The position numbers and the translations under genes were made by a program. From positions 198,326-235,578 of the forward strand of contig NW_014577382.1 in the NCBI RefSeq assembly GCF_000485595.1: 37,253 nucleotides of DNA, given 5' to 3'. The notes beneath the pieces are model-generated. The model was not told the DNA's origin. It saw nothing but the letters and a program-made list of their open reading frames with translations, and ran no database searches. Below are positions 2,374 through 32,800 of the stretch, one piece after another; the stretch's first letter is position 1; each line of letters begins with the position of its first letter. Source of the DNA: Priapulus caudatus. Its lineage: Eukaryota; Priapulida; Priapulimorpha; Priapulimorphida; Priapulidae.

Positions 2374-2445
2374 CAAGAGCTTATAATACCTCATATGTAA
2401 CCTTATATATATCAAGAGCTTAAATATAGGTATTATAAGCTCTTG
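2374..2445. mobile_element. Palindromic 7-bp-TSD family, copy 1 (nested)
   Basis: The arms are CAAGAGCTTATAATACCT and AGGTATTATAAGCTCTTG, exactly complementary. A second CAAGAGCTTA start at 2413 shares the right arm, giving a nested hairpin. Target duplication cannot be resolved because both flanks are (AT)n. Confidence 0.75.
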
Positions 2446-2838
2446 ATATATATATATATATATATCACTACTAGTTGTTAATCTATTTTTGGTAGCGGGT
2501 ATGTTGTTTATTGATCTGTCTGTGGCACTACTGAATTTGAATGAAATAAAGCAAGAATAAAGCAGTCAGTGTGCTAAGCATAACCCGCATAAGTTGCACC
2601 ACACAATGTCGCTAATCGTTCAAATCACTACAATTTCATTTTCACTGCACAATCGCAACAAATTACGATCAAATCTCAACGATCAACGATCAGTGCAAGC
2701 TAATGGGTATAAAACACGCCATCACACACCGAAGAGGTTTCTAGTTACGCGGACACGAAACAAAATTCGCTGTACTTCGATTGTTAATGTAAATTTAATT
2801 TTAATCGTGAATTCGTTCGTCGTGTGTTTTTTGTTTCA

Positions 2839-3015
2839 GTTTTTATACGCTCTTACTCGAGTCCACGGACGATGGAGAGCTGCGTTCACGTGTCCCATTG
2901 ATTCCACCTTTGTCTTTGGGCCACGTTGCGAGACCTCCAGACAGTTCACCATCAGGAACGCTCGCCTTTGGTGCCACTCCATCTGGCAGTGAACACCCAG
3001 TTGCTCTTGAATCTC
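2839..3015 (+). CDS. Weak candidate exon
   Basis: The acceptor-like TGTTTTTTGTTTCAG precedes an open frame reading LLLESTDDGELRSRVPLIPP and then HVARPPDSSPSGTLAFGA. The composition looks protein-like, but two other frames are also open, no donor is convincing, and no family is recognised. Confidence 0.18.
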
Positions 3016-3195
3016 TCTGCAACGCAATCAGATATCATCGGTGTGAATTTCAATATACTACATACGCGCACACTGGTAGATTGCTATTACACGTAAACAC
3101 CCAGTTGCTTTTGCATCTCTCTGCAACGCAATCAGATATCATCGGTGGGAATTTCAATATTACTACATACGCGCACACTGGTAGATTGATGTTCT
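2994..3195 (+). repeat. 101-bp tandem duplication
   Basis: AACACCCAGTTGCTCTTGAA starts at 2994 and recurs as AACACCCAGTTGCTTTTGCA at 3095. Both copies run through CGCAATCAGATATCATCGGT and ACGCGCACACTGGTAGATTG. A few substitutions separate them. Confidence 0.9.
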
Positions 3196-3728
3196 ATGGT
3201 TGGAATTGATGTTCTATTGTTGGAAGACCATACCTGATATCACATTATTACAGCATTTCATTGGCAACTCGAATTGTTTATAGTTTTGCTACATGACAAG
3301 CGGCAATGTTCGGTAAATTACGGAAGGGAGACCAGGAACAGACGCATGATAACTGTTGGTGTATACTAACTATGTGGTAATTCGTATGAGCTTCATATAT
3401 ATGCATACATGTTCGTTACGTAATTACTGGTAATGTATTGCATACAATCACTACTAAATTTGGGTACACACCACGTAGCTTGCAATTCTCTGTGTGCATA
3501 TGTACATTAGACGGTAGCTATTAAAGTAAAACTCACTTGGCGAACAATTGGTACGGTAATGGTTTATTTATTATAGCTACATGGTAGTATAATACAGCAT
3601 AATTAATAATGAATTTTGCACAGGGGAGAGATAGTGATCCGCTAGGGGACGGCTCTGATTTGCTAATTTTGTCTCTTATTTATTTTATTTTTTATTATTT
3701 TTGGCTAATTTTGTTTTATTTTAGAATT

Positions 3729-3766
3729 AGGGATAGGGTTAGGGTTAGGGTTAGGGTTAGGATTAA
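3729..3766 (+). repeat. Interstitial telomere-type (TTAGGG)n
   Basis: AGGGATAGGG is followed by four uninterrupted TTAGGG units and a degenerate one. CCTAACCTAACCCTAACC lies at about 856-873. This is the canonical metazoan telomere motif in an internal position. Confidence 0.9.
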
Positions 3767-3864
3767 CTGATTTCTATATCCACAACTGATTTCTATATTC
3801 ACTATATCTCTCCCCTGAGACCTACTAATTCATAATAGCTTTCATACATTATCATATATCGTAT

Positions 3865-4066
3865 TTCTATTACTGTAACATGCAAAACATCTCTTAATGG
3901 TAGATTCACTCGTGACACGTAGAATTTTACATTTTATACGTATTATAAATATTTTATACATATTATAAATATTTTATACATATAGCATAATTCTATTACT
4001 GAAACATGCAAAACATCTCTTGATGGTAGATTCAACCGTTACACGTAGAAGTTTATATTTTATATG
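3865..4066 (+). repeat. Direct duplication with 126-bp spacing
   Basis: TTCTATTACTGTAACATGCA (3865) recurs as TTCTATTACTGAAACATGCA (3991). Both continue through AAACATCTCTTRATGGTAGA and ACACGTAGAA. An ATTTTATACATATTATAA tract lies between. Confidence 0.85.
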
Positions 4067-4348
4067 GGCAAGGCACGCACGGTGCACCCTGAATAGCTTA
4101 GTTAGGCGCGGCAAACAGCTGCTAATATGCTACTATCGATCATAGGGTGCAGCATTCCTGTCGCAGGTGAAACGCCACACGATGCATTCAAGCAACTGAA
4201 CGCTCAGACGAGCCAGGTGATGCGAATGTGCGTGCGTGCAGTCAAATGGCTGCGCTCCAGCTTCCTACAGCAAAGACATCTCCTGCAGTGAGTATAGTTC
4301 ATACAGCTCTTCTTGTCGTACCTCCACACCGAATGTCAGTGATAGCTT

Positions 4349-4466
4349 ATATATATGCTATATGATTAGCTATATGATTAGCTATATGATTAGCTATATG
4401 ATTAGCTATATGATTAGCTATATGATTAGCTATATGATTAGCTATATGATTAGCTATATGATTAGT
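4349..4466 (+). repeat. 12-bp satellite (TATATGATTAGC)n
   Basis: Nearly perfect, about ten copies. Translation gives repeated MISY, so ORFs over it are artefacts of a period divisible by three. Confidence 0.95.
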
Positions 4467-6200
4467 GTACTGGCAGGTTAGTGTTCTGGTTCCCTTTTCG
4501 TAGGTTGGTGTAACGGAACTGCAGCAGATCGAGAGTGCTGCGTGGAACCAGGAAGGATGTAAGTTGTAACTCACTATATGTACAGTACCTGTACGTGTAT
4601 ATAGCCACACCAGGCGATTAGTACAGTATCAGACAAGACAAGACAAAACAAGACAGTATACAAGTTACAACGAGAGCACCGCGGATGACATTCAGTCGGG
4701 TTTAACAAAGATTACGCATGAACTAACAGAACTATATATATGTCACCTTGCAAGAAGCAAAAAAGTAAAGCGATGAAATAAAATCCTTTTAGGGACATTG
4801 CCTTGGCCTCTTTTCTTCTCGTAAAGAAATTGACGTTTCAAAGGCTAGGCAGCTTCCAATAACGTAATGAAAGCAAATCACGGTTCTTCACTGTGTCCAC
4901 TGAACGACGTGTTTCTGTGAAGCTGCTATTTATCATTTAACATCTTCGCCATTTGAACAACGAAATAGTTCATAGTGGCCTTATAGTCACCACGATACTA
5001 TAGCTTGAATATAAATCAAACAGGTGCTTCAATCAGGAATATGTTATAACCTTAACAGGAAAAGTTCAACCTACACTTTAACCGCCAATAAGATAACGGA
5101 CAACAACTTAGTATTTTGTATATTTTGATTCGCATATATTCATGTCACGTGGTATTTTCCATGGCGAACATACGAATTCATCTTTCACAATCCATCCTCG
5201 TCTTGTTGATCTTGCACATTTATTTCAAGTGATATAATTTGATAAATTAAAAGATAAGAGGAAACGCAATGCATGAAACTTCACGGGTATGGTCATAACA
5301 TGGCTTTAAGAGGGCAATTAATGAGGCATCCTTAATGAGGCAATTAATGAGAGAAGTTCTCTCTTATTCATGTTGTTTGTGCACGCAGCACAGGGCGGGC
5401 GTGCGGTGTACTTAATTGTGTTGCAGATGAGCATTTGACCGGCATTTACAGGTGATTATAGGCGAAATAGAGTAGAGAAACATTAAGACTTTGGTACATT
5501 TCGTGTTTATTTACCATTAATTTTTTTTTATTGAGACGTTCCAAGTGCCTGTGGTTCAACGCATGTGGTGACATCAACAGAGTAGAAGGTCAGAGGGTCA
5601 ACGGTTATACTTTCACATGGTAACTATGTATTTATGAGGTATTTCTCTGGACTGTCTCCATAGGTCGTAGCTTTATATGTTGTCCTTGTATGGGCATCCA
5701 CGAGGATGTTTGAAGTCTAGTCAGTGCTTCTCATATCTTTATTACAAGGTATGTCACACCTGACGCACAAGCATACACAGAGTGCTGCGCGGCTTTCTTA
5801 CTATATGTCTACGGATACTCCAACCAAACTCCTTATTGATGAGTTGAGAGTAGATGATGGAGCGAAAATATATAACGAGTGTGACCATAATTAACCGAGA
5901 CATGCGCATATATACTTAGTGTATTCATACGGCATATCCGAAACACTAATGCACATGGCTTGAGCTATTACAGCGTTTACATGATTGCCATCACATAGTG
6001 TATATAGATGCGCACACACTACACGACACAGGCCACACAGACGTCACTAGTCCTGCCCAGTGATGGGAATAAGTTCAATGCGCATATGCCACATTCCATA
6101 TTATCAAGAGCGTAAATTACGAAGGCACTTGATATTATATATGACATATTAACGTCGATTCGTCGACAACGATAGACAACTATATTAGCATATATTACCA
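4467..6200. other. Unique AT-rich DNA without recognised genes
   Basis: Only small direct repeats, such as GGCAATTAATGAGGCA near 5310-5350. No exon or RNA gene seen. Confidence 0.5.
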
Positions 6201-6202
6201 CA

Positions 6203-6283
<81 letters not shown>

Positions 6284-6285
6284 GC
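6201..6285. repeat. (ACGC)n / (CA)n / (TA)n compound microsatellite
   Basis: CGCA tetranucleotides pass into CA and then TA repeats. Confidence 0.95.
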
Positions 6286-6683
6286 CACATTCGATCTTTA
6301 GTGCAAACCTTGCACAGGAACGCTGTACCTGAGATCTTCCATAAGAAGAAGCTCTAACATGCAACGTGCCTCAAGTCAATAAAGCATGAATGCTCGGCTT
6401 GATATTCACATGGTTTTATCACATGCCCGTGTGCGAATATTGATGTATATATAGTGCAAAACCCAGCGTATATTGCTGAGCCCTGAAAAACGACTGATCG
6501 ATGGTATTTAGTTATATATTATATCCTCTGTCCTCCATCTACCACCACCACCATCTACAACCCCTGCAGGTAACCACCGGCACCACCAACAGCATATCGT
6601 CATGATTTTGTTTTGCTTTAACTTTAAGCTTATGTCACTGAAATTAGTCAAACCTTTCTTATCGATATTAGCTACGATTATAC

Positions 6684-6753
6684 CAGGAGTGTATAATGTA
6701 GATATAATATAGATAATATAGATATATATATAGCTAGATATTATACACTCCTG
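6684..6753. mobile_element. Palindromic 7-bp-TSD family, copy 2
   Basis: The arms CAGGAGTGTATAAT and ATTATACACTCCTG are exactly complementary. The 7-bp flanks ATTATAC (6677-6683 and 6754-6760) are identical. The loop is AT-rich with further GATATA symmetry. Length 70 bp. Confidence 0.85.
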
Positions 6754-7133
6754 ATTATACTACCGTCCTAGCAAAATTCGTTGACACTGGTTTTCTGACG
6801 ATGCTCTGGTGATGACTGTTGCCATGGTAACCAACAACCCAATTCCCCTTGGCACACGCTAGCACACCAGTAATTGCAATCATCCATCCTTCCTATTGGA
6901 TTTACGGCTAAAATCGGTTTTCAAGATGTCATCAACAGCAGCTGCCAGTATGAAGGGTTGATTCTGAATTATCACTTGCCTTTAATTTCCTATACGCTGC
7001 ATGGTATTGTAATCTTGCAATTATCATTCTATAACACCGCCACAGTTTCAATATTTATATATCGGCAAAAATGCTTTTAAACAACTATTTAAAACTAGAA
7101 AGGGCCGTTGTCGCCAACTACATGTATCCCCCG

Positions 7134-7735
7134 TGTTCTCCCCAAGATGTGTAAGTATACGAAGTTTGGTCGCGCTAGGTCAATTAGGGGCCGAGTTATA
7201 GAGCGGAAGGAAAATATCATAAAGGTCAAGGTAAAGGTCAAATAAAGGTCGTAGTGACCTGGTTTTGGTACGCGACACACCTTCTCCCCAAGATGTGTAA
7301 GTATACGAAGTTTGGTCGCGCTAGGTCAATTAGGGGCCGAGTTATAGAGCGGAAGGGAAATATGATCAAGGGCAAAGTAAAGGTCAAATAAAGGTCGCAG
7401 TGACCTGGTTTTGGTACGCTGCTCACCTTCTCCGCAAGATGTGTAAAGCCCGGCGCACACGTGGCGATTTTTGTCGACAGAACCGGCGATTTTGTTGGTA
7501 CTGTCGATAAAAATCGCCACGTGTGCGCCGGGCTTAAGTATACCAAGTTTGGTAGCGCTAGGTCAATTAGGGGCCGAGTTAGAGAGCGGAAGGGAAATAT
7601 GATCAAGGTCAAGGTAAAGGTAGCAGTGACCTGGTTTTGGTACTATGCACACCTTCTCCCCAAGATGTGTAAGTATACCAATTTTGGTAGCGCTAGGTCA
7701 ATTAGGGGTCGAGTTATAGAGCGGAAGGGAAATTC
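7134..7735. repeat. Four tandem units of a TGACCT-rich repeat
   Basis: Units start at about 7134, 7281, 7428 and 7650 with CTTCTCCCCAAGATGTGTAA, continue through CTAGGTCAATTAGGGGCCGA and AAGGTCAAGGTAAAGGTC, and end with AGTGACCTGGTTTTGGTAC. The period is about 147 bp; the last two are shorter and the third carries a MITE. No reading frame is conserved. Confidence 0.85.
7447..7534. mobile_element. PIF/Harbinger-like MITE inserted in the third tandem unit
   Basis: The 88-bp element has 34-bp terminal inverted repeats (AGCCCGGCGCACACGTGGCG at the left tip; one mismatch over 34). It is flanked by TAA at 7444-7446 and 7535-7537. Sister units carry GATGTGTAAGTATAC uninterrupted, which is the empty site with a single TAA. 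A 3-bp TWA duplication is typical of PIF/Harbinger. Confidence 0.85.
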
Positions 7736-7881
7736 TCTGCGGCGGACCGAGCGGCGGTGGCGGCTGGGGAGACATGAAACCATAGTATCCCCGCCGACTT
7801 CGTCGTGGGGAATACAATAATGGTTTGCAAACTTATAGAGCAATAAATTATAACACAATTTACAGAAACAATATACTAACA

Positions 7882-7960
7882 GGGTTCGAAATTAAGGGCA
7901 GCAAGCAGCAGCCTTGCTGCTTACGATTTCCAGTTTGCTGCCCTATTTCAAAATATTAGA
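7882..7960. mobile_element. Small foldback element
   Basis: TTCGAAATTAAGGGCAGCAA pairs with TTGCTGCCCTATTTCAAAA about 35 bp later, leaving a GCAGC-rich loop. No clear target duplication. Confidence 0.45.
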
Positions 7961-8509
7961 TTCAAATTATAATTGCTTGTATATCATAGAGAGAATCTGA
8001 CCTACTATTATTAACACCTACAAAGGTCTCTAAGATTTCATATTCATAATTCTGGCCATAAATCAATTTCGAACTCTTCACACAGAGCAAGGTACGCGGA
8101 TATTACAGGTGGTGTGTATACGTATTCACGTGGCAATACTATAATACTATTAAAAAGTACTATTCTATAGAACCACAACGCTAATTACCCCCCTCGTTCA
8201 ATGCGGCATGTAGGGTGTACGATGAGAATGAGGATGTGGATGGATTTCAGCGTATCGGCACTTTCTACAGTAACGACGCGATATGCACACGCCCGCACGA
8301 ACGCCAGCAAAGCAGCAGGTGTGATCACAAGAATGCAGGCCGATAGGGGAGGAAGTCCACACACGATACGTGACAGATACGTAACATCTAGATACAAACG
8401 TAGCCGAAAGCCTTGCGCGTTCATCCACTGACATTTACACAGAGTCCCTAACCGCGGCCTGCACCCGAAGCTGTTCCCAATTCTCGTTTAGCACCCCGGA
8501 TTAGTATAG

Positions 8510-8511
<2 letters not shown>

Positions 8512-8550
<39 letters not shown>
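8512..8550. repeat. (AT)n microsatellite
   Basis: Uninterrupted AT dinucleotides directly left of palindromic copy 3. Confidence 0.95.
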
Positions 8551-8553
<3 letters not shown>

Positions 8554-8559
8554 AACTAT

Positions 8560-8740
8560 CAAGGGTTAATAATGACAAATAATTTTTCATTAATTTGTCA
8601 AATAAATCGTCATTAATTTGTCAAATAAATCGTCATTAATTTGTCAAATAAATCGTCATTAATTTGTCAAATAAATTGTCATTAATTTGTCAAACAAATT
8701 GTCATTAATTTGTCAAATAATTTGTCATTATTAACTCCTG
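8560..8740. mobile_element. Palindromic 7-bp-TSD family, copy 3, with internal 23-bp tandem array
   Basis: The arms are CAAGGGTTAATAATGACAAAT and ATTTGTCATTATTAACTCCTG. The flanks CAACTAT (8553-8559 and 8741-8747) are identical. Between the arms a 23-bp unit (CGTCATTAATTTGTCAAATA plus AAT) repeats at 8608, 8631, 8654, 8677, 8700 and 8723, in right-arm orientation. The largest copy, 181 bp. Confidence 0.88.
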
Positions 8741-8949
8741 CAACTATATAATACACCGGGGCCCAAACTAGGATTGAGCAACGAAGCTGCGGTGCTTACC
8801 AGAGGATGTACGGCATTGGACGTCCTGATAACTATCTGGGGCGTGTGCTTCTTTTCCTTGTCCTCTGCTGTTCTCCCCTCTTTCCTACACACGAAGAAAT
8901 CTACGCACAACATCGCAAAAACAAATCCACAAATCCACGCCGCCACTCC

Positions 8950-9480
8950 GCTGGCTGGTTCTTATCGACTTGCAGCTACGGCTAGAATGCGGCGACGTCT
9001 ATACGTCGCCATGACCGACGGTGCAAATCAACGCATCGCTTCACCAGCGTCAACGTTGCTGACTCGGTGAAAAACCCGCACCACCGCGACAACCGGCCAC
9101 TCGAACCACTAGAACAAAACGCTGTCAACAACGTGCAGCGGTGGCGGCGGTGCAGTTCCCGCCGATGCGACAACGACTACGCAGAGACAGAGTGTGTGTC
9201 GCCTGTGGACCGCGCGCGTGCGGGCGACGCGCGTGCGCATGCGCGTATCGAGCGACTGCTCGCAGCCCGTCTAGCCGGCCGTCGCGTCGCGTGCAGATGC
9301 GTTTACCTGCAGACGTTCTCGCAACAACCACCAGGCGGCGCTGCGGTCATCATCATCATCGTCCTCATCAGAGGCTGAACCCGGTGCGACGGCTACCGCC
9401 CGCGCTCTATGCATCCGCGCCCACGAAAACACATCGATTGGGGTTTTATAGTACACGGCGCATTTGCGCGCGCGCATAAC
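8950..9480. promoter_or_regulatory. CpG-rich patch
   Basis: GCG/CGC-dense DNA, e.g. 9210-9260 and 9460-9475, standing out from AT-rich flanks. It may be an unmethylated CpG island with an unidentified transcription start, or old GC-rich repeat DNA. Confidence 0.35.
9307..9414 (-). CDS. Weak candidate first coding exon in a CpG-rich patch
   Basis: An ATG on the minus strand at 9414 opens 36 codons, including an acidic DEDDDDDD run and AAWWLLRERLQ, ending at a good donor CGTCTGCAG|GTAAAC. The surrounding 8950-9480 is strikingly CpG-rich (GCGCGCGTGCGG etc.) in an AT-rich window, as expected of a promoter. I recognise no family, and the Asp run could be just an ATC/GAT microsatellite. No continuation exon was identified. 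Confidence 0.22.
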
Positions 9481-9676
9481 AACCCCGGCACTAGGCTGCC
9501 ATATGCCCACGCGGTCGCAAATTGATTTTGTCACACGACGCTGCTGCTCTGCAGGTACCAGTACATACGGAGTAATCACGCGCCTCAGAGCCGTGCTTGC
9601 GTTGTGACCTATTTTGGTGCCCAACGAAACCAGCAGGTAAATTCGCTGGCAAACTTCAACCGCAGACTCTGATTCG

Positions 9677-9730
9677 TTATTCCTTAGCGATTCGTGATTC
9701 CTTAGCGATTCGTGATTCGTTTAGCGAACT
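9677..9730 (+). repeat. Short tandem repeat, about 18 bp
   Basis: CCTTAGCGATTCGTGATT occurs twice with partial flanking copies (GATTCGTTATT, GATTCGTTTAGCG). Confidence 0.8.
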
Positions 9731-11689: not shown

Positions 11690-11782
11690 CTTTACATTTT
11701 CACACATTTCACACTTTCACATCACACTTTCACACTTCACACTTTCACATTTCACACTTTCACACTTTCACATTTTCACACT
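11690..11782 (+). repeat. CACACTTT-type minisatellite
   Basis: Irregular TTTCACACTTTCACA units. Confidence 0.85.
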
Positions 11783-12723: not shown

Positions 12724-13615
12724 NNNNNNNNNNNNNNNNNNNNNNNNNNNNNNNNNNNNNNNNNNNNNNNNNNNNNNNNNNNNNNNNNNNNNNNNNNNNN
12801 NNNNNNNNNNNNNNNNNNNNNNNNNNNNNNNNNNNNNNNNNNNNNNNNNNNNNNNNNNNNNNNNNNNNNNNNNNNNNNNNNNNNNNNNNNNNNNNNNNNN
12901 NNNNNNNNNNNNNNNNNNNNNNNNNNNNNNNNNNNNNNNNNNNNNNNNNNNNNNNNNNNNNNNNNNNNNNNNNNNNNNNNNNNNNNNNNNNNNNNNNNNN
13001 NNNNNNNNNNNNNNNNNNNNNNNNNNNNNNNNNNNNNNNNNNNNNNNNNNNNNNNNNNNNNNNNNNNNNNNNNNNNNNNNNNNNNNNNNNNNNNNNNNNN
13101 NNNNNNNNNNNNNNNNNNNNNNNNNNNNNNNNNNNNNNNNNNNNNNNNNNNNNNNNNNNNNNNNNNNNNNNNNNNNNNNNNNNNNNNNNNNNNNNNNNNN
13201 NNNNNNNNNNNNNNNNNNNNNNNNNNNNNNNNNNNNNNNNNNNNNNNNNNNNNNNNNNNNNNNNNNNNNNNNNNNNNNNNNNNNNNNNNNNNNNNNNNNN
13301 NNNNNNNNNNNNNNNNNNNNNNNNNNNNNNNNNNNNNNNNNNNNNNNNNNNNNNNNNNNNNNNNNNNNNNNNNNNNNNNNNNNNNNNNNNNNNNNNNNNN
13401 NNNNNNNNNNNNNNNNNNNNNNNNNNNNNNNNNNNNNNNNNNNNNNNNNNNNNNNNNNNNNNNNNNNNNNNNNNNNNNNNNNNNNNNNNNNNNNNNNNNN
13501 NNNNNNNNNNNNNNNNNNNNNNNNNNNNNNNNNNNNNNNNNNNNNNNNNNNNNNNNNNNNNNNNNNNNNNNNNNNNNNNNNNNNNNNNNNNNNNNNNNNN
13601 NNNNNNNNNNNNNNN
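12724..13615. other. Assembly gap, 892 N
   Basis: Unknown sequence; an open frame crossing it is meaningless. Confidence 1.
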
Positions 13616-14736: not shown

Positions 14737-14789
14737 CAAGAGCTAATAATAACGCTAATAATATAATATATAGGTATTATTAGCTGTTG
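14737..14789. mobile_element. Palindromic 7-bp-TSD family, copy 4
   Basis: The arms are CAAGAGCTAATAATA and TATTATTAGCTGTTG (one tip mismatch). Identical flanks GTGTAAT lie at 14730-14736 and 14790-14796. Length 53 bp. Confidence 0.85.
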
Positions 14790-15106: not shown

Positions 15107-15149
<43 letters not shown>

Positions 15150-15170: not shown

Positions 15171-15221
15171 CCTGACAGTATAATGTATAGATATATTATC
15201 TATATTATACACTCCTGATAA
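15171..15221. mobile_element. Palindromic 7-bp-TSD family, copy 5 (degenerate left tip)
   Basis: The arms around GTATAATGTATAGATA and TCTATATTATACACTCCTG are complementary. TATTATG is repeated at 15164-15170 and 15222-15228, but the right repeat begins 4 bp beyond the canonical CTCCTG end, so boundaries are less certain. Confidence 0.65.
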
Positions 15222-17546: not shown

Positions 17547-17585
17547 CAGTGATTAATAATGACAAATTTGTCATTATTAACCCCG
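17547..17585. mobile_element. Palindromic 7-bp-TSD family, copy 6 (39 bp)
   Basis: The core TTAATAATGACAAATTTGTC continues to ATTATTAA as a perfect palindrome without loop. Tips are CAGTGA and CCCCG. Identical flanks GTGATAG lie at 17540-17546 and 17586-17592. The arm sequence resembles copy 3. Confidence 0.8.
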
Positions 17586-18478: not shown

Positions 18479-18562
18479 CAAGAGCTAATAATACCTTAGT
18501 AGGTGCTTAATCTACTTATGTGCTTATATTATTAAGGTGGTAAAAGGTATTATTAGCTCTTG
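18479..18562. mobile_element. Palindromic 7-bp-TSD family, copy 7
   Basis: The arms CAAGAGCTAATAATACCT and AGGTATTATTAGCTCTTG are exactly complementary. Flanks ATACTAA and ATACTAT agree at 6 of 7. The loop is about 48 bp. Arms differ from copy 1 by single substitutions that are complemented on the other arm. Confidence 0.82.
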
Positions 18563-18628
18563 ATACTATAAACCAAGTACGGTTAGTATCTTAGTACAGT
18601 CGTAACTACTACGGTTATTATATATAAT

Positions 18629-18671
18629 CAGGAGCTAATAATGAAATTTTTTTTGTCATTATTAGCTCCTG
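18629..18671. mobile_element. Palindromic 7-bp-TSD family, copy 8 (43 bp)
   Basis: The arms are CAGGAGCTAATAATGA and TCATTATTAGCTCCTG, with a T-rich loop. Identical flanks ATATAAT lie at 18622-18628 and 18672-18678. Confidence 0.85.
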
Positions 18672-19902: not shown

Positions 19903-20367
19903 TTATGACTTCTAAGAGAGCTGCAACAAGTATCAGCGATGGAAGAGTCCTTCTCGACCCATCCATCGATTTCTTACATGTCAAACTCCTTTGAGATTAT
20001 TTACTCCTGATATAACAGATTAGCCAAGGCAGGAGGACATCACGATTCTTCAGATTCTGAGAAATTAATAATTTACGAAGTCTGATGGGCAGTATACTTG
20101 GTTACAGAGAAACAACTTAGCACAACACGCACTCGATCCTAATCGATTAGCCACCTTTAAATTTGCTTTCATGGACTGTGCCCGTCGGAACCAAGTGGAG
20201 CAGAAAGTTGCATCGGGATCCTAATGCAAGCGATTACGTTTCAAATTGTGCGATGACCAACATGCATGTAGGCCCTACATTGTACATATATATATATATA
20301 TCAAAAAAATTATTTCAATCATGTATAGAAATAATGCTTTAATAGTGAAAGTTCTGCTTTGTGGTAA

Positions 20368-20540: not shown

Positions 20541-21414
20541 TCCCCTTCATATATACGTGATACATTTAATCATGATAATCATTTGTTTTACATTTTCGTA
20601 TTATTTTTAGAATGTTGTATTGACGAAAAATATAATTGGGTGAGTGTAAATAAAAAATAGTAAGTGAAATACATAGAGTAGTACTAGTAGAGCAATGAGG
20701 TTTTACGCTGTCGTATACCCTTATAACACACATAGTACTGTTACAACATAAATTACATCATTCATATTACAACCCACATACCGTTAAAAATTACAACAGT
20801 AGCCAAATTTTCATGGGAGGGAATTTATTAGCATTGCATGAAAGAGTGGGATTAGGAAAGAAAGTAATTGTACGATGTTGAGAGATGTCTAAAATGCAAT
20901 GGTGAGCATAACAAACATGAAGTAAACATAACATAAAGTAACGTAACGTACCATATTGCATAAATAACAATCGTAACAACATAAGTGAGACCAACACTTA
21001 GGGCCTACTGTGTTATATATAATGTTGCATGGTAAAGTGAATTATTGCAGGCAGACTTTACCTATGGTAATAGTGACACTATAATATCATGATGTACTTT
21101 AAGTAACGGTGATAGTGTGCGAAGTTATCGTATACTGCAGAATATTTTAATTTATATATATATATAGCTTAATATATGGAACAGACTATATATAAATTTA
21201 TAGAACATAAGGGGTATAATGGGTACATACTAATAGAAGGTACCACTTGTATGGTGTAAATACATCTAATTTTATTCTCTGCATATATATATGTGTGTGT
21301 AAGAAATCCTGGGAATAGTATCCTAAGACGATGTATAGGAGAATCTTGTAGGGATGCACTGACAGGGACAAGTAGGATAATAGAAATTATATGTATCCGT
21401 CAGTTTTCACTCAC
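20541..21414. other. TOGARAM1 intron start, AT-rich
   Basis: Sequence directly after the GTGAGT donor on the minus strand. No further exon, stop-proximal poly(A) signal or RNA gene recognised. Confidence 0.5.
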
Positions 21415-23346
21415 CTGATGTGCATCAGAAGAAAACGTTCCATCCAGCTGTCCAACTTCGTCCCACGGTAACTTGTTACGCTTTCCCGCACTTCTGAAAC
21501 GTGACTGGTTGCTACCTGGGCTATCCACCTTTTGGATGGCATCAATACCAATCACCCTCAGACTCGAGTTCGACGAAGTGTCGCTCGGGCTTTCGGAGCC
21601 AGTGTCCTGACAGACGGCGTGGGCTCTGGCCGAGCCACCGCCCGACCCCGCCATGATCCAGTCGATGTCGGCGCCAAACCGCATGCCTCGGTCGCGCAGA
21701 GAAGCAGACGTGGGGTGCAACTGGAGCGAATACTCGATGCACTGATCGGCGGTGAGCCGCGGCAACATCCTGCGCGCTAATCTCGCTTGAACGGCCGACA
21801 TTATACCCTCTGCATCGTACTGTAGCTCAAGACTATCTACAGCCTGAATAAGAGGTTGCATTTTATTCATACCCATCGCCTGCCCGATGGTCGCAAAACA
21901 TTCCAAGGATGCATGCCGCACTTTTCGCTTCGAATCTAGAAGTGTTGGAGCAAGTGTTCTGCATAGCCATGCAAGATCAAACTCGTAGCTTGGAAACGTC
22001 AGCAGGGACGCAATTACGATATTCAACGTCTCCTGTCTGACGTTGGAATTCTTGTTCATTAGATTTTGATCACATATCACAGTAAGCACGGATTTTGGCG
22101 AGAGTGTCTGCATCAGCCTCATAATAACTCGCATGTTCTCTTGCTTTAGCATTGTCTTGTTTTCCCCTATATGCTTAGACAAAGCCCCCACTATTGGCTT
22201 TAGGACTGGTTTCACAGCAACCTTGAGCTTTATCACCAACAGCTCAAGAATCTCTAGAGTTGTTGATAGAACCTTGAAGTTCACATCATCGAGTAAAGCT
22301 TGCAAGAAATTGATAAAGTTGTATAAGTTACTAACTAGTGAATTTGTGTTTTCTAACTGCTTTAAGATGTTCTTTAATTCCTCTACACCTTGTATACGAG
22401 CCTTCCAATCTGACTCATCAGAAAGCTTGTCCATCACATGGTTTGGCACAAAGCCAAATTGTACATTGTTCTGTTGACTAAGACTGTTACTACGGCCACG
22501 AATCTTGATAATATCCGGATTTGTACTTCTACCAATCTTCGTTGCAAATTCCTCAAAGTCACAGTTGGTGATTCTGCAGTAGTAAGTCAGATGTTGATCC
22601 GGTAGCTTCTTTAAGAATTCATTGAACCTTTTTTCACTAACTAATTCTTGTATTTTTTCCAGTGATACAAGAATGGGTTGTTGAGCCGTTTCATCGCCTG
22701 CAGAGTCGTGTAAGCGAATAACCAGTGCTTCGGTTAGCAAATGCAAATCTTCATTAGCAAACTCAGGCGTAAAAAGCAATGGCAAGCCAATCGTGATCTC
22801 CCGTCGGACAGCAGGATCTTCACTCTCTAGGCCATACTTCACCAGACCACGAAAGACAGACTCCAAATCACTAGAGTATTTCATATAGACGTGTACAGTT
22901 TGAATGACAGATCTACGCACTTTGGGATGAGAGATGTTCATTAGTAGTTTCGGGAAGATCACTGTCATGCAGTTATCCAACTCATGGCCGAATTGTGGAA
23001 TGAACTCACTAATTAGTATCACAGCATTATTTTTAACTTCCCAGTTAGTATCTATTAACGTGTAAACTAGACTTTGAAATAATGCTCGTTTCTCTTTAAA
23101 GAGCAGCCGGCCACCATTCTTTCTCAAATCATTTCGTAACCACTGGATAATGTCAAGTCGGCTGTACAGTTTTTGTTCTCGAAGCTGTTGTATCACTACG
23201 CTTTCTTCCATACTAACGATGCTCACTATAGTGGCTGCCTGATTGCCAGTAGTTACATTCCTTGAATCACTGTTTGCAAGTTGTGTACGGTTGTGGACAC
23301 CGTGTACATCTCCCACAACGGGGAACTTGGCAACCGTACCTGCCAT
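21415..23346 (-). CDS. TOGARAM1: TOGARAM1 (TOG array regulator of axonemal microtubules), first coding exon, 644 residues
   Basis: TOGARAM1/crescerin proteins bind tubulin through TOG domains and regulate ciliary axonemal microtubules. The exon is uninterrupted from the ATG at 23346 to CATCAG|GTGAGT, where the last exon base is 21415 (phase 0); reading on would add VSEN and a stop. Residues of about 50-265 form TOG1 HEAT repeats. Residues of about 295-545 form TOG2, opening with the typical helix segment ESDWKARIQGVEELKNIL. The block GIMSAVQARLARRMLPRL, then GADIDWIMAG and GKRNKLPW, aligns with the end of the large first exon of vertebrate TOGARAM1 as I remember it. Vertebrate proteins are about 1,700 residues with TOG3 and TOG4 further on. 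I found no such exons between 1 and 21414, so they lie left of the window, in the N gap, or were missed. An in-frame TGA immediately precedes the ATG. Confidence 0.93.
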
Positions 23347-23363
23347 TCATTCGGCGTGTTATT

Positions 23364-24259: not shown

Positions 24260-24311
24260 GTGGCGCCACCAGGTGTACACAACAGAGCAAACTCCACAGC
24301 AGATGGCGCTC
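24260..24311. promoter_or_regulatory. Two CTCF-like motifs upstream of TOGARAM1
   Basis: CACAGCAGATGGCGCTC (24295-24311, plus strand) matches the bilaterian CTCF core (CCASYAGRKGGCRSY) at all but one position. A second, weaker match, CACCTGGTGGCGCC, lies on the minus strand within 24260-24277. A third core, AGGTGGCGCC, is at the TOGARAM1 promoter (23809-23818). The motif is established for bilaterian CTCF; that these sites are bound is inference. Confidence 0.35.
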
Positions 24312-24394
24312 TCGCTCTGGCTCAATTCTACTATTATCCTGAGTGTGGGAAGGGGCACTGCATGCAGTTTGACAACAGAGCTGTATAATATTAA

Positions 24395-24430
24395 CAGGAG
24401 TCCATCAATAGCTCTATTGATAGACTCCTG
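24395..24430. mobile_element. Palindromic 7-bp-TSD family, copy 9 (36 bp)
   Basis: The arms are CAGGAGTCCATCAATAG and CTATTGATAGACTCCTG (one mismatch). Identical flanks ATATTAA lie at 24388-24394 and 24431-24437. The shortest copy, essentially a bare hairpin. Confidence 0.85.
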
Positions 24431-24454
24431 ATATTAACATACACGCACGCATAC

Positions 24455-24551
24455 CAAAGGCGGATTTAGAGGGGGGGTCGAGGGGGTCCGGACCCCCCCC
24501 CCCTTTTACCACAAAAAAAGGAAAAAAGCATACAACACGGCAAGCGCTACG

Positions 24552-24637
<86 letters not shown>

Positions 24638-24981
24638 CTCTTACATTGTCTCCATAAAAAAATCTTGTTTAGCGCTAGTTTTTCTGATAAAGATTTACTT
24701 ATATATATGAAAATTCGTTATAAAAACCTAAAAATGGGCAAAGAGGGGACCGCAGGTGTCCGGAGGACCGGATCTGATAAATTTTTGCATTCTAGACATC
24801 ATAATTAGATGCTCTCAGAATGCACCAATTTTTAAAAAAAATCTTGGGGGAGGTCTACCCCCCAAACCCCCCCTAAGTGGCCTTCGGCAGCTTTTTAAAA
24901 CACCAAAAAAAATAAAGCAGAAAAAAGTGCCCTTTATTTCTTCCTGGACACCCTTTTTCAAAAGTCCTGGATCCGCCCCTG
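24455..24981. mobile_element. Degenerate hAT-like element with internal CA microsatellite
   Basis: The ends are CAAAGGCGGATTTAGAGGGG and GTCCTGGATCCGCCCCTG, the widespread CAGGGGCGGATCCAG terminus. The inner right part contains GGGGGAGGTCTACCCCCCAA, common in this family. A (CA)n tract expanded inside. The flanks are CA-rich, so the 8-bp duplication is unreadable. Confidence 0.65.
24553..24635. repeat. (CA)n microsatellite
   Basis: About 41 uninterrupted CA units inside the hAT-like element. Confidence 0.97.
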
Positions 24982-26670
24982 CATACACACACACGCGCGC
25001 GCACACACACACGCACGCACGCGTTAAGGAAGTTTAACATATCGCTCGGCGAGATACACGAAGAATTGTCGTTAATAACGCAATACTTGGGCTCCGTAAC
25101 AGAGAAGCAAATCTGTACACGTGTTGTCTGAAATCTTGGCAAATAATGGCAAACGCAAACCAAAGAAAACTATATTTAAATGTTCCAGTACCAAACATTT
25201 TTATTTTGATAGAGTTAATTATTACAAGACTACGTTTTGTGTCAAAATAGTTCAATACGTTAACCATAATGCTGCGCTACATGTAAACACTGTGTGAGAC
25301 AACTGATACATTACTTTATCAAACATCACTTTAGGAAATGAAGGCACTGAACACTATTTGTTTGCACACTATAGAGACATAACGAATACTTAAACTACAA
25401 TAACTAGCATTATAATAATTTTATTGCATGAATAACCGCAGAAAATTGTATTACATACAGTATTAGTATTAATTGTAGGTACACAATCGTTGTTTAGCAC
25501 AGAAAAACAACAGTAGTAAAGCTTTAAATGTTTGTTCAAAGTAATCTGGTTTCATTTTTCGACATAATTATGTTATAATCATATGGACGGACTTTATCCA
25601 GTTTTGGTTCCAGTCATCAGAATTAGTCTACGATCCTCTATCCTAAGGTTATCATATCGAAGTAACAATAAATTGATCGGTAATATCTAATTCTTTTTAT
25701 ATTGTCTATTAATTTCCATTCCAATTATTTGTAAAAAGGTATAGGCGGTATATACTTCAATAAATACGGATTCATGCATGCTTTGAGTAATAGGAAAATA
25801 GTGGTGAATTTTTTTGTTTTATGTTGATACACAGAAATTTGACATATAATACTCGACCTTAAATCACATCACACAACTACATAATTATTTGTAATACGTT
25901 CTTGTTATATACTGTTCCCACTGCGATATATATAGAAATTTGCATATTTCTTCAACGCTACGTTAAACCGTAATGGCACATAATGCGGTATTTGGCTTAG
26001 GAACATTTGCTCTATACTTAGGACTTAATGTTATAGGTACAAGTTATTAAAATAATAATGTTGCTAATTACTTTAATAGTATGTATTTTTCAGCAATACT
26101 GCAAATAAAGCAATGCTATGTGTTCAACCACATGGTCTATGCCACAAATAAATCGATGTAGCTATTTTTATCCTTAAAAAAAACGTGACAATTATAACGT
26201 AAAACTTTAAGGAATGATCTCCCTTTAATTTTTAATCAGCATATGCTTACTAACGCTATATCCCAAACAGTATAATAAATAAATAATTGCAAAAGGAAAC
26301 CTATACAAATAACATTGAGTTACAACTGAAAAGGAACAGATACGTATAGCCAGTTTAGTGGCATGCTTGGGAACCGTCTAACAGTGGAATATGAAGCATA
26401 TAAAACACTTTACTAGCTATAAGCACTAGTATAAGCATAGAAGTAACCCGACGTTCTAATCAATGCACTTGCTTAATTAAGCGAGGCAATTTAGCTACAA
26501 GACACAGGTATTCTACCCCCATCTACACGCGAGTCATGGAAGCACGTACGCGATTATAATGCACTTATTCTTATTCGCACAAGCACACAAAAGTAGCCGA
26601 TAATACCGACATATTATGTCCGTATGAACGACACTGTTCTAAGGCCCTTTCGTTGATTACATATTTAACA
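24982..26670. other. AT-rich intergenic DNA
   Basis: Starts with a short CACG/CA tract (24985-25022); otherwise unique AT-rich sequence between the calpain 3' end and the hAT-like element. No exon or RNA gene seen. Confidence 0.6.
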
Positions 26671-26676
26671 TTTAAT
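26671..26676 (-). terminator. Candidate poly(A) signal ATTAAA for calpain
   Basis: ATTAAA on the minus strand lies about 120 nt beyond the stop codon. No AATAAA was seen closer. The hexamer is a common variant, but in AT-rich DNA it occurs easily by chance. Confidence 0.3.
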
Positions 26677-26797
26677 ATTAGAAAACACATACATAGAACC
26701 TGATGATGTTGTTCCTTGCCATTATACTTTGTGTGGATTTTTGCGTATAGTCAGGGTCCCGCTAATGACCTGTCCACGCCAACACTGCTCGCATAAT

Positions 26798-26824
26798 TTA
26801 CGTGTACATGGTCAGCTCCACCCA
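26798..26824 (-). CDS. Calpain terminal coding exon (WVELTMYT, stop)
   Basis: The acceptor is TTTTCTTGCAG|TGGGTGGAG in phase 0, followed by eight codons, WVELTMYT, and TAA. Classical calpains end in W(L/V)xLTMY plus one residue. In vertebrates a last exon also begins at this Trp, so exon structure is conserved as well. Confidence 0.9.
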   Translation of the reverse strand, partial: WVELTMYT

Positions 26825-29800
26825 CTGCAAGAAAACAAAGTTGTAACTCAGGCATGATATCGATGCCGAGGTCGCTCTATACTTAATGAACATAACTTCT
26901 TACAGCTAATATTGCTTTCGGCTGCTATGGCTGCTGCTGTCGCTGCAGCAGGTCGTCACCCACCACTAGCGCCATTGCAGTCACCACCTCCGCCGCCACC
27001 GCCGCCGCCATTGCCGTCACCACCACCGCCATTGCCGTCACCGCTTCTGCCGCCACCACCACTGCCGCCGCGACCGCCATGGCCGTCTCCGCTGGCACCG
27101 CAGCCGCCACCGCCATTGCCGTCACCACCTCCGCCGCCACCACCACTGCCGCCGCCACTGCCATTGCCGTCTCCGCTGGCACCCCAGTCGCCACCGCCAT
27201 TACCGTCACCACCTCTGCCGCCACCGCCACTGCCGCCGCCATTGCCGTCTCCGCTGGCACCGCAGCCGCCACCGCCATTGCCGTCAGCACCTCCGTCGCC
27301 ACCGCCATTGCCGCCGCCACCAGCGCCGCCCTTACTACCGCCTCCTCATTACTATACGTGGCTATGATTGCTCTGTGAACGTGATAAATACTTACATCGT
27401 TCATATCGATCTCTGACATCTGCAGCTTCTGGAACTTTTCTGTAAAACAATGGTAAATTACACATGACTCGCGTTTGTTGAGTTGTGACATGAAAGTGAT
27501 TAAACTAGAAAATCATTAAACGTTTAATATGGCAGCTAGCTAGCGTCGATGTTCGATGTTGCTTCCGGCTTCCCCCACCAAGCAATTACGGGATGTTTCT
27601 TGATTTTCCCCTGCCAGGGAATTTCCCACTGGTCAAGTTGTTTCCCGCTGAAGGGGCCTGAACAGAGTGTTTTCAGTGATTCATGCTTCCTCCCTACCAC
27701 CCCCTAGGCAGTACGTTACTCTCTCCGTGTGCCACCCCCCCCCCATCTAGAGAGTGTTATTCACTGATCGTGCTTTTGCCTTCCTCACGAGCCTGGGTTA
27801 CTCATCTATCATCCTGCTCCCCCCTCCATGGAGTATAGTTCGCTGATCATGCTATATATACTTCCTCCCACCTACTGCGCAATCATACGCCAATCATGTT
27901 GTGCCACACCACCCTACTTACAAGGGACAGGGGGAGTGTTATTAACATATCATGCTTTGTGCCCCGCTCCCTCCCCCGCCACCAATTATGATGTGTCTTA
28001 CTGCACTATACTCACTATAGTCCAGTGGTTCCTAACCTGTGGTCCGTGGACCTTTTTGCGATCCGTGGATGGGCTTCAGGGGGTCCGTGAAACCCATTGT
28101 ATGCAAAATTTTGTGTTTATGTGCTTATGTGCATTTTTCTGGGGAGAAGTCTGTAGCTTTCACCAGATTCTCAAAGGGGTCAATGACTTAAAAAAGGTTA
28201 AGAACCACTGCTATAGCCAGTGGAGCTGCTTTCGCTATGGAGTATTAGTCATGACGTGGCCCCTTCTCTGCTAGAGTTCTAGTAATCAGCCATTTTGTGT
28301 CCACCTCCCCACGCCATCACGCAGACTCACCAATCATGCTCTTCAGCTTGACAGCACACATGACAAACTCATCAAAGTTCATCGAGTTGCTCTTGTTGCC
28401 ATAGCGAAGCACCAACACTTTCAGAACCATTGTGCTAAGGCGGTAACCTGGTAGACATCAAGACGCTGTCATTACAATTCGGCTCGTGAAAAGTCAACGA
28501 TAAAATTGCCTTATTGTATTCCTCACAGAAATCTTTACTGCTTTATTCGTAATTCTCGAGGGTCTAGAGTATAGTTTGACTGTTTGTAGATTCTTAACTG
28601 ACTTCTTAATTGTCGTATGTAGATTGCGTGCGTCATGAGAGCCGCTCAGCTGACACTATGTAACGAAAGTTTACTCTAAATTCTGAGCTGACTTATTATC
28701 AGTTTTATTCAAATCGAGTCTACTCAACTTTCCCATGCAATTAGTGGGGGTCAGGAAATCGATGAATTCGTGTGATTTTAAGCGACGCACGTGTTTTAAG
28801 TTTTTTTTATTTAAAAAAACAAAATTTAAAATTAACTTTATTGCGCAAAATGTGCAGTTGACTGACCAGCAGAGTGGAGCGCCTGCCTCAGTTCAAAAGT
28901 GTTCAAGTTTCCTGACTTGTCTTTGTCGTAGTCTCTGAACACGTTCTGTCACAAGAGCAAATAATCATTAACTCTCCGATTTCAGGTGATGTACTGGCTT
29001 GTTAATGCACCGTATGAGAAGTGTCATTATATAGACATGTGCGTCAATATTACATATGTGTCTATATTATGACACTCCTGATCGTATGACCAATACATAT
29101 GGCAAGCGAGCCGCGCGATCTTCGTAAAAACATATCTTTCTTCTTAATGTTTTACTATTAAAAAATATAAACCAAATATTATGTTGAAATAATGTGAGCA
29201 TAGAATGGCGGTTTGTACGAAGTTCCTGTGGCATAAAAGTTATAATTAGTTTGACTGCCAACATTTATTATTTTATTTGATGAAGCCCAACAGGACAGAT
29301 TCTGTTAATATGCATGAATAGGACTCACCTTCCACCACCTTATGTTCTGCCAGAGCTCTCTGAATTCATCTAGACCAAGCTTACCAGACCTATCATCCTG
29401 AGAACTGGGTTCAGGGCAAATATCAACTCATTACTGTTCCAGTATTTTTATTTTTATTATGTAGGCCCTACATGTATTTATAATCACATATGAATGAGAA
29501 AAATAACACACAAAGTAATAGTGTGGCAAGTAGCATACAAATAGTAGAACAGTTCGTTACTATGAAATCTCAAAGAGCGCCTCGTGGTATTTCACAAACT
29601 AATTGTATATGAATAATTATAGCAATTAATATGAAAACTTAATTAAATTAAATTAAAAAATGAAGGATACATCCATCATGGCAACCATGCTTCTGCAACA
29701 CTCCAGACTGAATCCTTCAAAGTTGAACTCTGTGAGGGACGAATATTGAATAACATATCATTATTTGATTATAATTGTATACATGTGATTATCGCGAAAC

Positions 29801-32800
29801 GAGCAAGAACCTAAATATTTACTTGCCTGATGTTGACTGAACATTCGCATATCAACCACTCGGACGCCACGCTTACGTACCTATACACGTACGGATAACA
29901 TACATATATATACTCACCCACGACAGAACCTAACCGTTGTCCGTAAAAGCTATTCTAATGCATGATAGGAAGGAGAAATGAAGGCATGAATAAGTTTTTT
30001 CAGTGTGTCAGACACTTCACCTTTGCGTAGTAAAGGGAGAGTATAAGCGTCGAGCTGGAAGTGTAGGGGAAGTGTACACTCAGGGATGACAAGCAGCAAC
30101 ACTGCTATGTGAGGCAGGCATGCTGCTAACCAAACTGTGTTTGGAAACTGGCGAGCGCAGGTGAAATCGGGCCCAACAAGTATAGCTTTAAACAACACAT
30201 ACGGGTATACGCATGGAAAACACGTGGAGAAATGCAATAAGAAGGCATCCATCCGCTACAACATAGCGTAAGAGTTACGATGCACAATTCCACATTACAA
30301 ACGCGGGTAGCGTTGTGAAAGCACAGTACCATATTGCGACATAGATTGCGCGGAAAATAAACGCGTCAATAAAAATAATAAAGAACGACGATCGAGACGG
30401 TGAATCCGATTCTAGACATTTATCAGATGTATTTCGACATACAAGCAACAGATATAAACAAATGAGCGCAAATAATAAATATAATAAAGCTATGAACGCT
30501 AAAGCAACAATGAATATTGGTGAACTAGTCGATCCTAGCTCGCATGCCGATTATCACCATGCAGAATCAGTCAAGCACACACACACACACACACACCATG
30601 CATCATCGCTGTAAATAATGTTAAAGCTAATATGTTAAAGCACACGGTTGCAGCAGCAGAATCGGATAGCTTTGTGGTTTCCCAGTCATAATTCTATCAG
30701 CAACTAATAGCAATATAATACAGCATAGAATTGTCGTAAAGCTTCTGTAAAATATAGAAGTAAATCGATGTACGCATCATGCAGGATAACCACAGATGAC
30801 TTATTAACATCGCAAACAGGTATAATAGACATGCAAAATAAAGACCGCATGGTTGGGAATTGAAGAGAATAGCTGGGAAATAAAAGTATATGTGGCACAC
30901 ACGATTGGACACAGATTTTCCATGTGAAATCTCCTGTGAAGGCACAAACATGAGGCGATCGTTTAGACAGGCAAACAAAATAAAGTTCTATACGACGGTA
31001 GCATCATGTCATATATTCGATGATTTAAAGGTTCCTGTGAATTATAGTGACAGGGCGTTTGAGGAAGGAGTGATTTAAGCTGTGTCTATGGTCAGTACTA
31101 GCTCCTAATCATCACCTTTTCTATGTAAAACTTCTAACGAGTGGTTATGCTATTTGATTATACCGACAGGCATATGAACTAATTAAACTAAGACAGTCTG
31201 TTATGAAACGCTTTCACAACAACGGAGTTCTAGGAAAACTGCAAAAATGTCAGTTGTTATATTATAAAACCTGAAATAGAAGAAATGCTTTGTTAATATT
31301 AGAGACAACGCGGAAGTAGATCCACGTCTAGGCAACATTATGCCAGCCATCTTTGCTGATTTGAAACATCGATCTGAATGATCTATTTAGATCTGTTTAT
31401 CACGTATATAATGACTTTCCATCGAATCCAAACTCAGCGTCAACTCCAATATTAGTTGAGCATATATTTTTTTAATTTTTTTATTATTATTACATTGTAA
31501 TTTCATTATTATTATATTTATATTAGTTACTTCAACCGAGAATGGCGCACGTCGATGCGTGCTTCTGTTTCAATAAGGCTACATCCATGTAACCCTTCGC
31601 TCCGGTACAGGAGCGAGGGTTACATAGGTAGAGCTATTGTTTCCTATATGCGGATCTATTTCCCTAGTTGTCGCGTTAGTCCAATGCGGTCGCGAACGCA
31701 ACCGTCGAGCGATAAACTGCAAAGGGTCAGAAAAAGTCGCAGCTATGAGAGGTAGTAGTAGCAGGTAGGCCTATAGTAGTAGTGGTAGTAGTAGTGGTAG
31801 TGGTGAGAGGCACTGCAAACAGCCCGCCCTGCGAGCGAGCGAGGGGAGAGGATCGAGTACCCTTCTTCAGCACGTGGTTTAGCACGGCCTGCAGCTCGTG
31901 CTGATCCACCTCCATGTCATCTCCGGCGATCCTGCGGAAAAACTCGTTCGCCTCGGGCTCCCTGGAAGCAGCGGACGCCTGCGCCGGCGCGGCAGCGTGC
32001 ACGGCCCTCACCTTTAGCGAGAGAAACACGGGGTTTCAGTAAAACACGAGACGGCGCCGGCTCACCTTTCATGACGACGGCGCTGAGCACGCTCTGCAGC
32101 TCGGCGTAGTCGACTTCAAGGTCGTCGCCAGAGACGCGCGCGAACATTTGCTTGATGGCGGTTTCCTGTTCCTTGCTGTCGCCCTGTGCGGGAGGCTGCG
32201 GGGCAGAACGCGTGAAACTCTCGGAAAGAAATAGTGATGGCGGTGCATGGCGGCGCTAGCATGCAGGCATGTAGCGAACGCCGCGTGCTCGGTTGCAAAA
32301 TAGCGCTACACTGTCATTACGGGAGCGTTTTCTGATGAGAAACGCGCATGAACGCGACAGCTTTGTTATTTCATTGGGTGAGAAATTTACTATTATTACG
32401 GGACCGTTTGACAGTGATTTCTGATGAGAAACGCGAATGAACGCGACTGTTTGTTATTTCTTGAAGTGAGAAATTCGGTCAGAAATAATCGCAAAGCTAT
32501 ATATATATTACCAGGAGTAGATAATAGGGAGGGGGGGATAATAGGGGGGGGGTCCCTATTATCTACTCCTGATATTACACACGATAAATTTAGTATATGT
32601 GCTACGTAAAACAGGTGTCTATACTGCATTTGGACCCGTATAGTTTACTTAAATATATAGCTGTTTTACATTGACCTCGGTTTCACCGTGGCAATCACTG
32701 AAAAATCAAGTATCATACTGTCTGAGTATAACCAGGACATAGACAACAATAATCAAGACAAAATATACATATACATACACGAACCAACATGAAACAACAA

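Follow-up and report, generated by a model that had tools for sequence, protein, structure and literature searches.

What are the minute palindromes that lie dispersed through this part of the Priapulus caudatus genome, and are they mobile elements or traces of something larger? In the window (the whole stretch of 37,253 nucleotides that was analysed) all eleven palindromes named in a preliminary description are present at their positions, and one part of its account was upheld, namely that the palindromes are dispersed members of a transposon-related family whose tips are shared and whose target duplication is mostly 7 bp. The analyses presented here indicate that the palindromes are very probably excision footprints (hereafter scars) and, with somewhat less certainty, that the enzyme behind them was P-type. 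The features of the window are listed below (TSD, target-site duplication).

2374..2445, no strand: scar of 72 bp in (AT)n; core with a 19-nt copy of flank plus left tip (TATATATATCAAGAGCTTA)
6105..6131, no strand: scar of 27 bp; TSD ATATTAT
6684..6753, no strand: scar of 70 bp; TSD ATTATAC
8560..8740, no strand: family C scar of 181 bp, its filler iterated; TSD CAACTAT
14737..14789, no strand: scar of 53 bp; TSD GTGTAAT; arm piece CTAATAATA inside the core
15171..15217, no strand: degenerate scar lacking the left tip and any flush repeat; right end intact
17547..17585, no strand: family C scar of 39 bp; TSD GTGATAG; mutations in both tips
18479..18562, no strand: family G scar (CAAGAGCTAATAATACC) of 84 bp; TSD 6/7; genome match to itself only
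18629..18671, no strand: family C' scar of 43 bp; TSD ATATAAT; 20 nt kept on the right, 16 on the left
19980..20009, minus strand: family D long-element end (CAGGAGTAAATAATCTCAAAGGAGTTTGAC), equal to C322:218305-218334
24395..24430, no strand: scar of 36 bp; TSD ATATTAA
29018..29080, no strand: degenerate scar with truncated left tip; right-hand CGTATGA offset by 2
32512..32571, no strand: family A scar of 60 bp; 19 nt of each end kept; TSD ATATTAC

Exact 7-mers are flush with both tips at seven of the eleven named loci (6684, 8560, 14737, 17547, 18629, 24395 and 32512), and at 18479 the flanks agree at six of seven positions, as had been claimed. The locus at 2374, which sits in (AT)n, scores 0/7 at k=7, although even repeat lengths do fit. 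Offset 7-mers had been proposed for 15171 and 29018; CGTATGA is indeed found, offset by 2 to the right of 29018, but neither locus has a flush repeat and the left tips of both are degenerate. The tips are exact on both sides at six of the eleven loci (2374, 6684, 18479, 18629, 24395 and 32512). At 8560..8740 the right end retains 20 nt exactly and the left end 20 nt with mismatches. The 27-bp scar at 6105..6131 had been overlooked, and was recovered by a search for tips combined with flush repeats.

When left and right flanks were paired across different loci as a control, none of the 110 pairs agreed at 7/7 and three agreed at 6/7. The search for tips with flush repeats, run on the window together with genomic stretches totalling 200 kb, returned 2 places at k=5, 5 at k=6, 12 at k=7, 2 at k=8 and none at k=9; the reversed sequence gave 2 at k=5, 1 at k=6 and none at the other three lengths. 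Of 67 non-simple inverted repeats scanned without regard to motif, 15 have flush repeats, comprising five of 7 bp, all of which carry CARGAG-type tips, one of 5 bp, and nine of 11-12 bp that all lie within one tandem array in L014. Across the 385 Mb of genome searched, CAAGAGN{0,25}CTCTTG occurs at 1029 places versus 227 in the control, and the family A scar pattern at 390 versus 0. Among 20 of the CAAGAGN{0,25}CTCTTG places, chosen by eye from roughly 50 listed matches, four have neither a 6/7 repeat nor an exact 8-mer, which counts against footprints. In one listing of 17 places L022:516, L022:5015, window position 3621 and the 18479-18671 cross pair were set aside as non-family.

Longer elements with the same ends are present, and the scars share a target preference with them. 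The target NTNNNAN is found at 27/30 scars and 10/10 long elements against a background of 7.8%, in a tally that is confined to exact 7-mers (6-of-7, 8-bp and no-repeat loci excluded) and counts the duplicated pair L001/L002 once. The stricter RTANTAY is found at 9/30 scars and 1/10 long elements, and the commonest target bases spell ATATTAT. The long-element end pattern, CARGAG...RRGAGTNTGAC, occurs at 448 places versus 0 in the control; since elements identified beforehand were used to build it, the sharing of the motif is partly built in. The copies read are foldback transposons of about 0.5 to 1.1 kb, large palindromes with ungapped arms of up to 330 bp. From a list of 23 close end pairs 16 were examined, and their duplications were exact at 7 bp in eight, exact at 8 bp in four, embedded in (AT)n in three and absent from one; the long elements display the 7-8-bp target duplication of the P superfamily. 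The earlier contention that 7 bp fits no superfamily does not survive, as Galileo, a P-superfamily transposon of Drosophila, makes 7-bp and sometimes 8-bp duplications (PMC4168063, partial text), and both lengths occur in the long elements here.

Seventeen of 18 scar arms (nine scars) match a parental long-element end to position 11-20, the sole exception being the mutated right end of 17547. The scar arms are the outermost part of the terminal repeats that longer foldback transposons carry. For family G, 127 scar places stand against two surviving long ends of the expected form. A partner for the family D end at 19980..20009 was searched for and not found.

The arms stop close to 20 nt. In the 100 ends of 50 scars listed from the 390 family A matches, the longest exact match to the best of five parent variants was 16 nt in 7, 17 in 7, 18 in 11, 19 in 22, 20 in 50 and 21 in 3, where the pattern requires at least 16 nt and up to 46 could have been detected. 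Ends of both the GGGAA and the GAAGA sequence show the limit, and GAGTNTGAC, a motif of long ends located just beyond position 20, is present in 0/39 scars. Such a near-fixed limit in the 50 listed scars would fit cutting far inside the end. Conversely, one end at C28:981174 keeps GGAGTATGAC (about 29 nt by eye, scored shorter by the script because the parent variant was missing from its list), which counts against a plain footprint there, and the long element L007:1803-2646 lacks GAGTNTGAC, which also counts against footprints. The palindromes had been regarded as themselves mobile; because the 20-nt limit is near-fixed, the one long core to give a clean test (that of the 84-bp scar) is unshared and longer elements carry the same ends, they very probably are not.

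The cores were examined for sequence common to copies. The 84-bp scar at 18479 matches only itself genome-wide, and the 181-bp scar at 8560 has no second full copy, its 24 partial matches reaching at longest 76% over positions 21-156. A MITE should have an interior common to its copies, which was seen in neither of these two scars; it should also have terminal inverted repeats and a target duplication, both of which are present and both of which footprints predict too. Short scars lacking filler can be identical (7 among 50 listed). In family G the filler reuses pieces of the arms: for 12 scars with filler of at least 10 nt, the summed longest match was 100 versus 69 in shuffles, and 0/300 shuffles reached 100 (21 of 23 sequences printed, of 127 places, two same-sequence repeats being omitted). 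Taken singly, 4/12 family G fillers fell below 0.05. In nine scars tested one by one, templated filler was mostly not significant; the longest-copy test gave p 0/500 at 2374, 0.024 at 32512 and at least 0.15 at the other seven, and 7-mer coverage gave p ≤0.05 in four (2374, 8560, 14737 and L007:8519).

In the mechanism proposed, for which we infer the acting transposase, how the two strands are cut and which enzyme repairs the gap, a P-superfamily-type transposase would insert foldback transposons at AT-rich sites, with a duplication of 7 or sometimes 8 bp. On excision it would cut one strand at the tip of the element and the other some 20 nt further in, leaving each side of the gap with a target copy and, as a 3' overhang, at most 20 nt of the terminal repeat. 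The overhangs would be united by end joining of a probably polymerase-theta-like kind, often with pieces of arm or flank copied into the junction, which would yield target copy, arm, filler, inverted arm and target copy. The scars have this anatomy. By analogy, it is that of known P-element excision with templated end joining, where the Drosophila value is 17 nt.

P-type transposase genes are present in this genome. PF21787, the P-type transposase domain, has 64 matches here and none in 14 control genomes, and an open frame of 827 aa contains HTH, RNase H, GTP-binding and THAP9_C domains, with no THAP DNA-binding domain reported in the domain search. In five P-type loci of 5.5-6 kb (L066-L070, L066 being cut by a contig end) no P-type transposase lay between CARGAG ends and no convincing end pair was evident. 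Dada, which lacks terminal inverted repeats and inserts into small RNA genes (PMC3706591, partial text), was rejected, as the ends here are inverted repeats and the window has no tRNA gene or Rfam match. As candidate autonomous elements, C286, where roughly 5 kb separates an end from a weak P match, yielded no left end within the 2.5 kb that was read (outside 26301-31299), and C96:346557-356210 (L045) has inverted rather than direct flanks, indicative of an inverted duplication. Long-element ends agree with the Drosophila P end at 9-10 of the first 15 nt, a comparison made without a shuffle control.

Large palindromes are prone to deletion, and the long elements, with ungapped arms of up to 330 bp, are large palindromes that might lose their interiors in place, through slipped replication or the cutting of a hairpin, with no excision by a transposase. 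Such collapse should stop at many points, whereas 50 of the 100 ends measured are exactly 20 nt and three reach 21, and we consider it very improbable indeed. It is only slightly less doubtful that palindromes of 24-84 bp transpose as such, as minute MITEs served by a P-like transposase. Their tips and 7-bp repeats do occur at dispersed sites, and identical 40-bp scars (20+20) recur at several loci, seven among the 50 listed, as expected of a 40-bp mobile element; five of the seven were read, with three exact 7-bp repeats, one exact 8-bp repeat and one without, and the repeat sequences differ. The near-fixed 20-nt limit, the absence of GAGTNTGAC from scars, the 84-bp core with no second copy and the arm-derived filler all argue against mobility of this kind, as does the requirement of Drosophila P elements for 138 and 216 bp at their ends (cited in PMC1562414, partial text). 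For Anopheles P elements a requirement of about 100 bp has been suggested (PMC1562414, partial text).

Excision by a non-P transposase, hAT-like or undescribed, that cuts 20 nt inside would accommodate the finding that P transposase is not tied to CARGAG ends at the loci examined. The Galileo target GTANTAC, however, resembles the target here, 7/8-bp repeats are common to both, the long-element ends resemble the Drosophila P end to the extent given above (without a shuffle control) and the long stagger has been cited as distinctive of P (PMC7776569, partial text), making such an enzyme unlikely. A hAT origin is less likely from the duplication length, mostly 7 bp here versus 8 bp.

If the palindromes are excision footprints, scars in this genome probably number in the thousands, by extrapolation; the excision junctions found in print derive from laboratory excisions, a few dozen at once (PMC2895639, partial text). 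On balance, we favour the view that departures of P-superfamily-like elements are archived in this genome as thousands of preserved germline scars, which would give the cutting offset (20 versus 17 nt), the spectrum of end-joining repair and families known almost only from scars. Were thousands kept in one genome, the cleavage offset, the range of in vivo repair outcomes in the germline and the past of transposon families since lost could be read from sequence alone. Minute palindromic MITEs catalogued elsewhere may be such scars, and repeat annotation can miscount scars as mobile elements.

Several known systems resemble the one described here. Zebrafish Pdre2 is a P-type transposon of another animal, but has 13-bp ends, CATACCTGTCAAC, and 8-bp duplications (PMC10983969, partial text). 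The P-related MITEs of Anopheles are likewise non-autonomous relatives of P elements, although their duplications are 8 bp long and their centre, flanked by less than 100 bp of P-end sequence, is unrelated; nor are they minute palindromes (PMC1562414, partial text). Galileo shares long, variable inverted ends and 7-bp with some 8-bp duplications; its target is palindromic and AT-rich, GTATTAC (GTANTAC), whereas the commonest bases here are ATATTAT, the comparison being one of targets and not of ends, and the available part of its description makes no mention of a footprint family (PMC4168063, partial text). A parallel in anatomy is the Drosophila P excision junction, in which filler lies between two arms of up to 17 nt, each bordered on the outside by an 8-bp target copy; P{wa} junctions display microhomology joins and templated filler, and resemble the scars in their order of target copy, arm, filler, inverted arm and target copy (PMC2895639, partial text). 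The P{wa} junctions have 17-nt arms and 8-bp copies and were induced in the laboratory, whereas those described here have 20 nt and 7/8 bp and are natural (PMC2895639, partial text).

All eleven minute palindromes of the preliminary description, whose tips are of the CARGAG type, are present in the window (C322:198326-235578 of a 385-Mb, 2952-contig assembly), and exact 7-mers flush with both tips, as claimed, stand at seven of them. Pairing left and right flanks between different loci produced 0/110 exact matches. A scan for tip plus flush repeat at k=7 returned 12 places, against none in the reversed sequence, while a motif-blind scan found flush repeats of 7 bp (five), 5 bp (one) and 11-12 bp (nine, all within one tandem array). 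Seven palindromes of the same kind, four of them clustered in one stretch, were counted in 200 kb of genome stretches sampled at fixed places. Scaling up seven per 200 kb gives, as a crude extrapolation, roughly 13,000 such palindromes genome-wide.

Features in the window and in the genome stretches examined
7446-7535: inverted repeat, 39-nt arms, 95% complementary (AAGCCCGGCGCACACGTGG...)
12724-13615: assembly gap of 892 N, adjoining ACACGC-type repeats
21400-23346, minus strand: open frame, 648 aa, TOGARAM1/FAM179B-like, best relative 73% identical; marks the source as an animal
L007:8519; L011:1552, 5324, 5756 and 7602; L012:5348; L013:815: sampled palindromes (6 of 7 repeat at L011:5756 and L013:815)
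L031 (C3:799233-799565): palindrome with exact 8-bp repeat ATACGTAT, like some long elements
L071 (C286:23800-26300): further palindrome at 26000, 6 of 7 repeat by eye, adjoined by broken protein frames
L010:4966-5785: long element, 820 bp, exact ATATAAG repeat
L007:1803-2646: long element, 844 bp, repeat 6 of 7

The 7446-7535 inverted repeat sits inside a local repeat unit; because neighbouring units resemble empty sites by eye, it suggests a distinct small transposon whose target duplication is the 3-bp TAA.

The two long elements come from the sampled stretches; both are foldback elements, and their tips are of the type seen in the palindromes. Genome-wide, the L010-type end pattern CARGAGYNNATAANNNNNNRRGAGTNTGAC occurs at 448 places and a second pattern (GAGTWTGAC ends, looser middle) at 137, with no control matches for either. 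Reading 16 of the 23 close end pairs listed gave complete elements of 500-1128 bp, with target repeats of exactly 7 bp (eight) or 8 bp (four), in (AT)n (three) or absent (one). In L045 (C96:346557-356210), 9.4 kb separates two ends of family A, one of several end-sequence classes, and one flank is an inverted copy of the other; the locus is either a palindrome created by the assembly or an inverted duplication.

The palindromes, which we read as excision scars, have pieces of long-element ends as arms. At 32512 both arms correspond to nt 1-19 of family A; at 8560 the right arm is identical to nt 1-20 of family C, a segment that the left arms at 8560 and 17547 match with mismatches. The 20-nt right arm at 18629 has one mismatch to family C and fits C' ends, and the arms of L007:8519 are family-E remnants of 18 and 20 nt. 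The continuation of long ends beyond the scar arms, GAGTNTGAC, is in none of the 39 scars compared; it is also absent from the L007 long element. Scars and long elements share a target preference: counting exact 7-mers only, NTNNNAN occurs at 27/30 scars and 10/10 long elements (background 7.8%), and the stricter RTANTAY at 9/30 and 1/10.

Scar ends show a near-fixed upper limit of 20 nt. The family-A scar pattern GAGTAGATAATAGN{0,30}CTATTATCTACTC occurs at 390 places genome-wide (control 0). For 50 of these, the 100 ends were compared with the best of five parent variants, and retain 16 (n=7), 17 (7), 18 (11), 19 (22), 20 (50) or 21 nt (3); remnants below 16 nt do not appear because the pattern itself demands 16, whereas longer ones are detectable. 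The commonest junction, GGGAA + TTCCC (7 of the 50 listed places), is 20+20, as is GAAGA + TCTTC in a sister end variant. An exception, C28:981174, retains GGAGTATGAC on one side, ~29 nt by eye, and was scored shorter since its parent variant lies outside the five used. The seven scars with this junction are identical over 40 bp, and flanks were examined for five; their repeats (exact 7-bp in three, exact 8-bp in one, none in one) are all different.

For the 84-bp element 18479-18562, the sole match in the genome is the element itself. The 181-bp element 8560-8740 is likewise without a second full genomic copy; its 24 other matches, which include its own reverse strand, often cover one end, the longest elsewhere being 76% over positions 21-156. 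The 2374 core repeats 19 nt of the adjoining flank and tip, the flank part lying in (AT)n. Filler of at least 10 nt is present in 12 of the 21 family-G scars analysed; summed over these 12, the longest match to the arm is 100 vs 69 in shuffles, and 0/300 shuffles reached 100. The family-G scar pattern occurs at 127 places (control 0) and its long-end pattern at two, both on C1623, although this pattern presupposes GAGT in its usual position and other long ends could be missed. On these counts family G may be nearly gone. The C1623 ends point outwards and have similar flanks, as in an inverted duplication; this contig (L079, L080) is similar in appearance to L045.

The scars would most likely arise by P-like excision, with one strand cut at the tip and the other 20 nt inside, followed by joining of the gap; we infer a P-type transposase as the enzyme. 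The PF21787 profile has 64 matches in the genome and none in 14 control genomes. A frame in L066 carries P-type HTH, RNase H, GTP-binding and THAP9_C domains, with no THAP domain reported; against the solved Drosophila P transposase it gives a match at 2.8e-23. At the loci examined, no P gene flanked by CARGAG ends was found. In the literature searched (titles and abstract openings, with most subscription journals outside the coverage), no description of natural genome-wide P-type footprints was found.

P transposase is described as making a staggered cut, at the tip on one strand and 17 nt into the element on the other (PMC7776569). In flies, joining of the gap left by P excision can yield 8-bp target copies around as much as 17 nt of each end plus filler, often copied from nearby (PMC2895639). 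The scars match these features, but with a 20-nt offset and 7- or 8-bp target copies. A mixture of 7- and 8-bp duplications, as in the long elements here, is reported for Galileo (PMC4168063).
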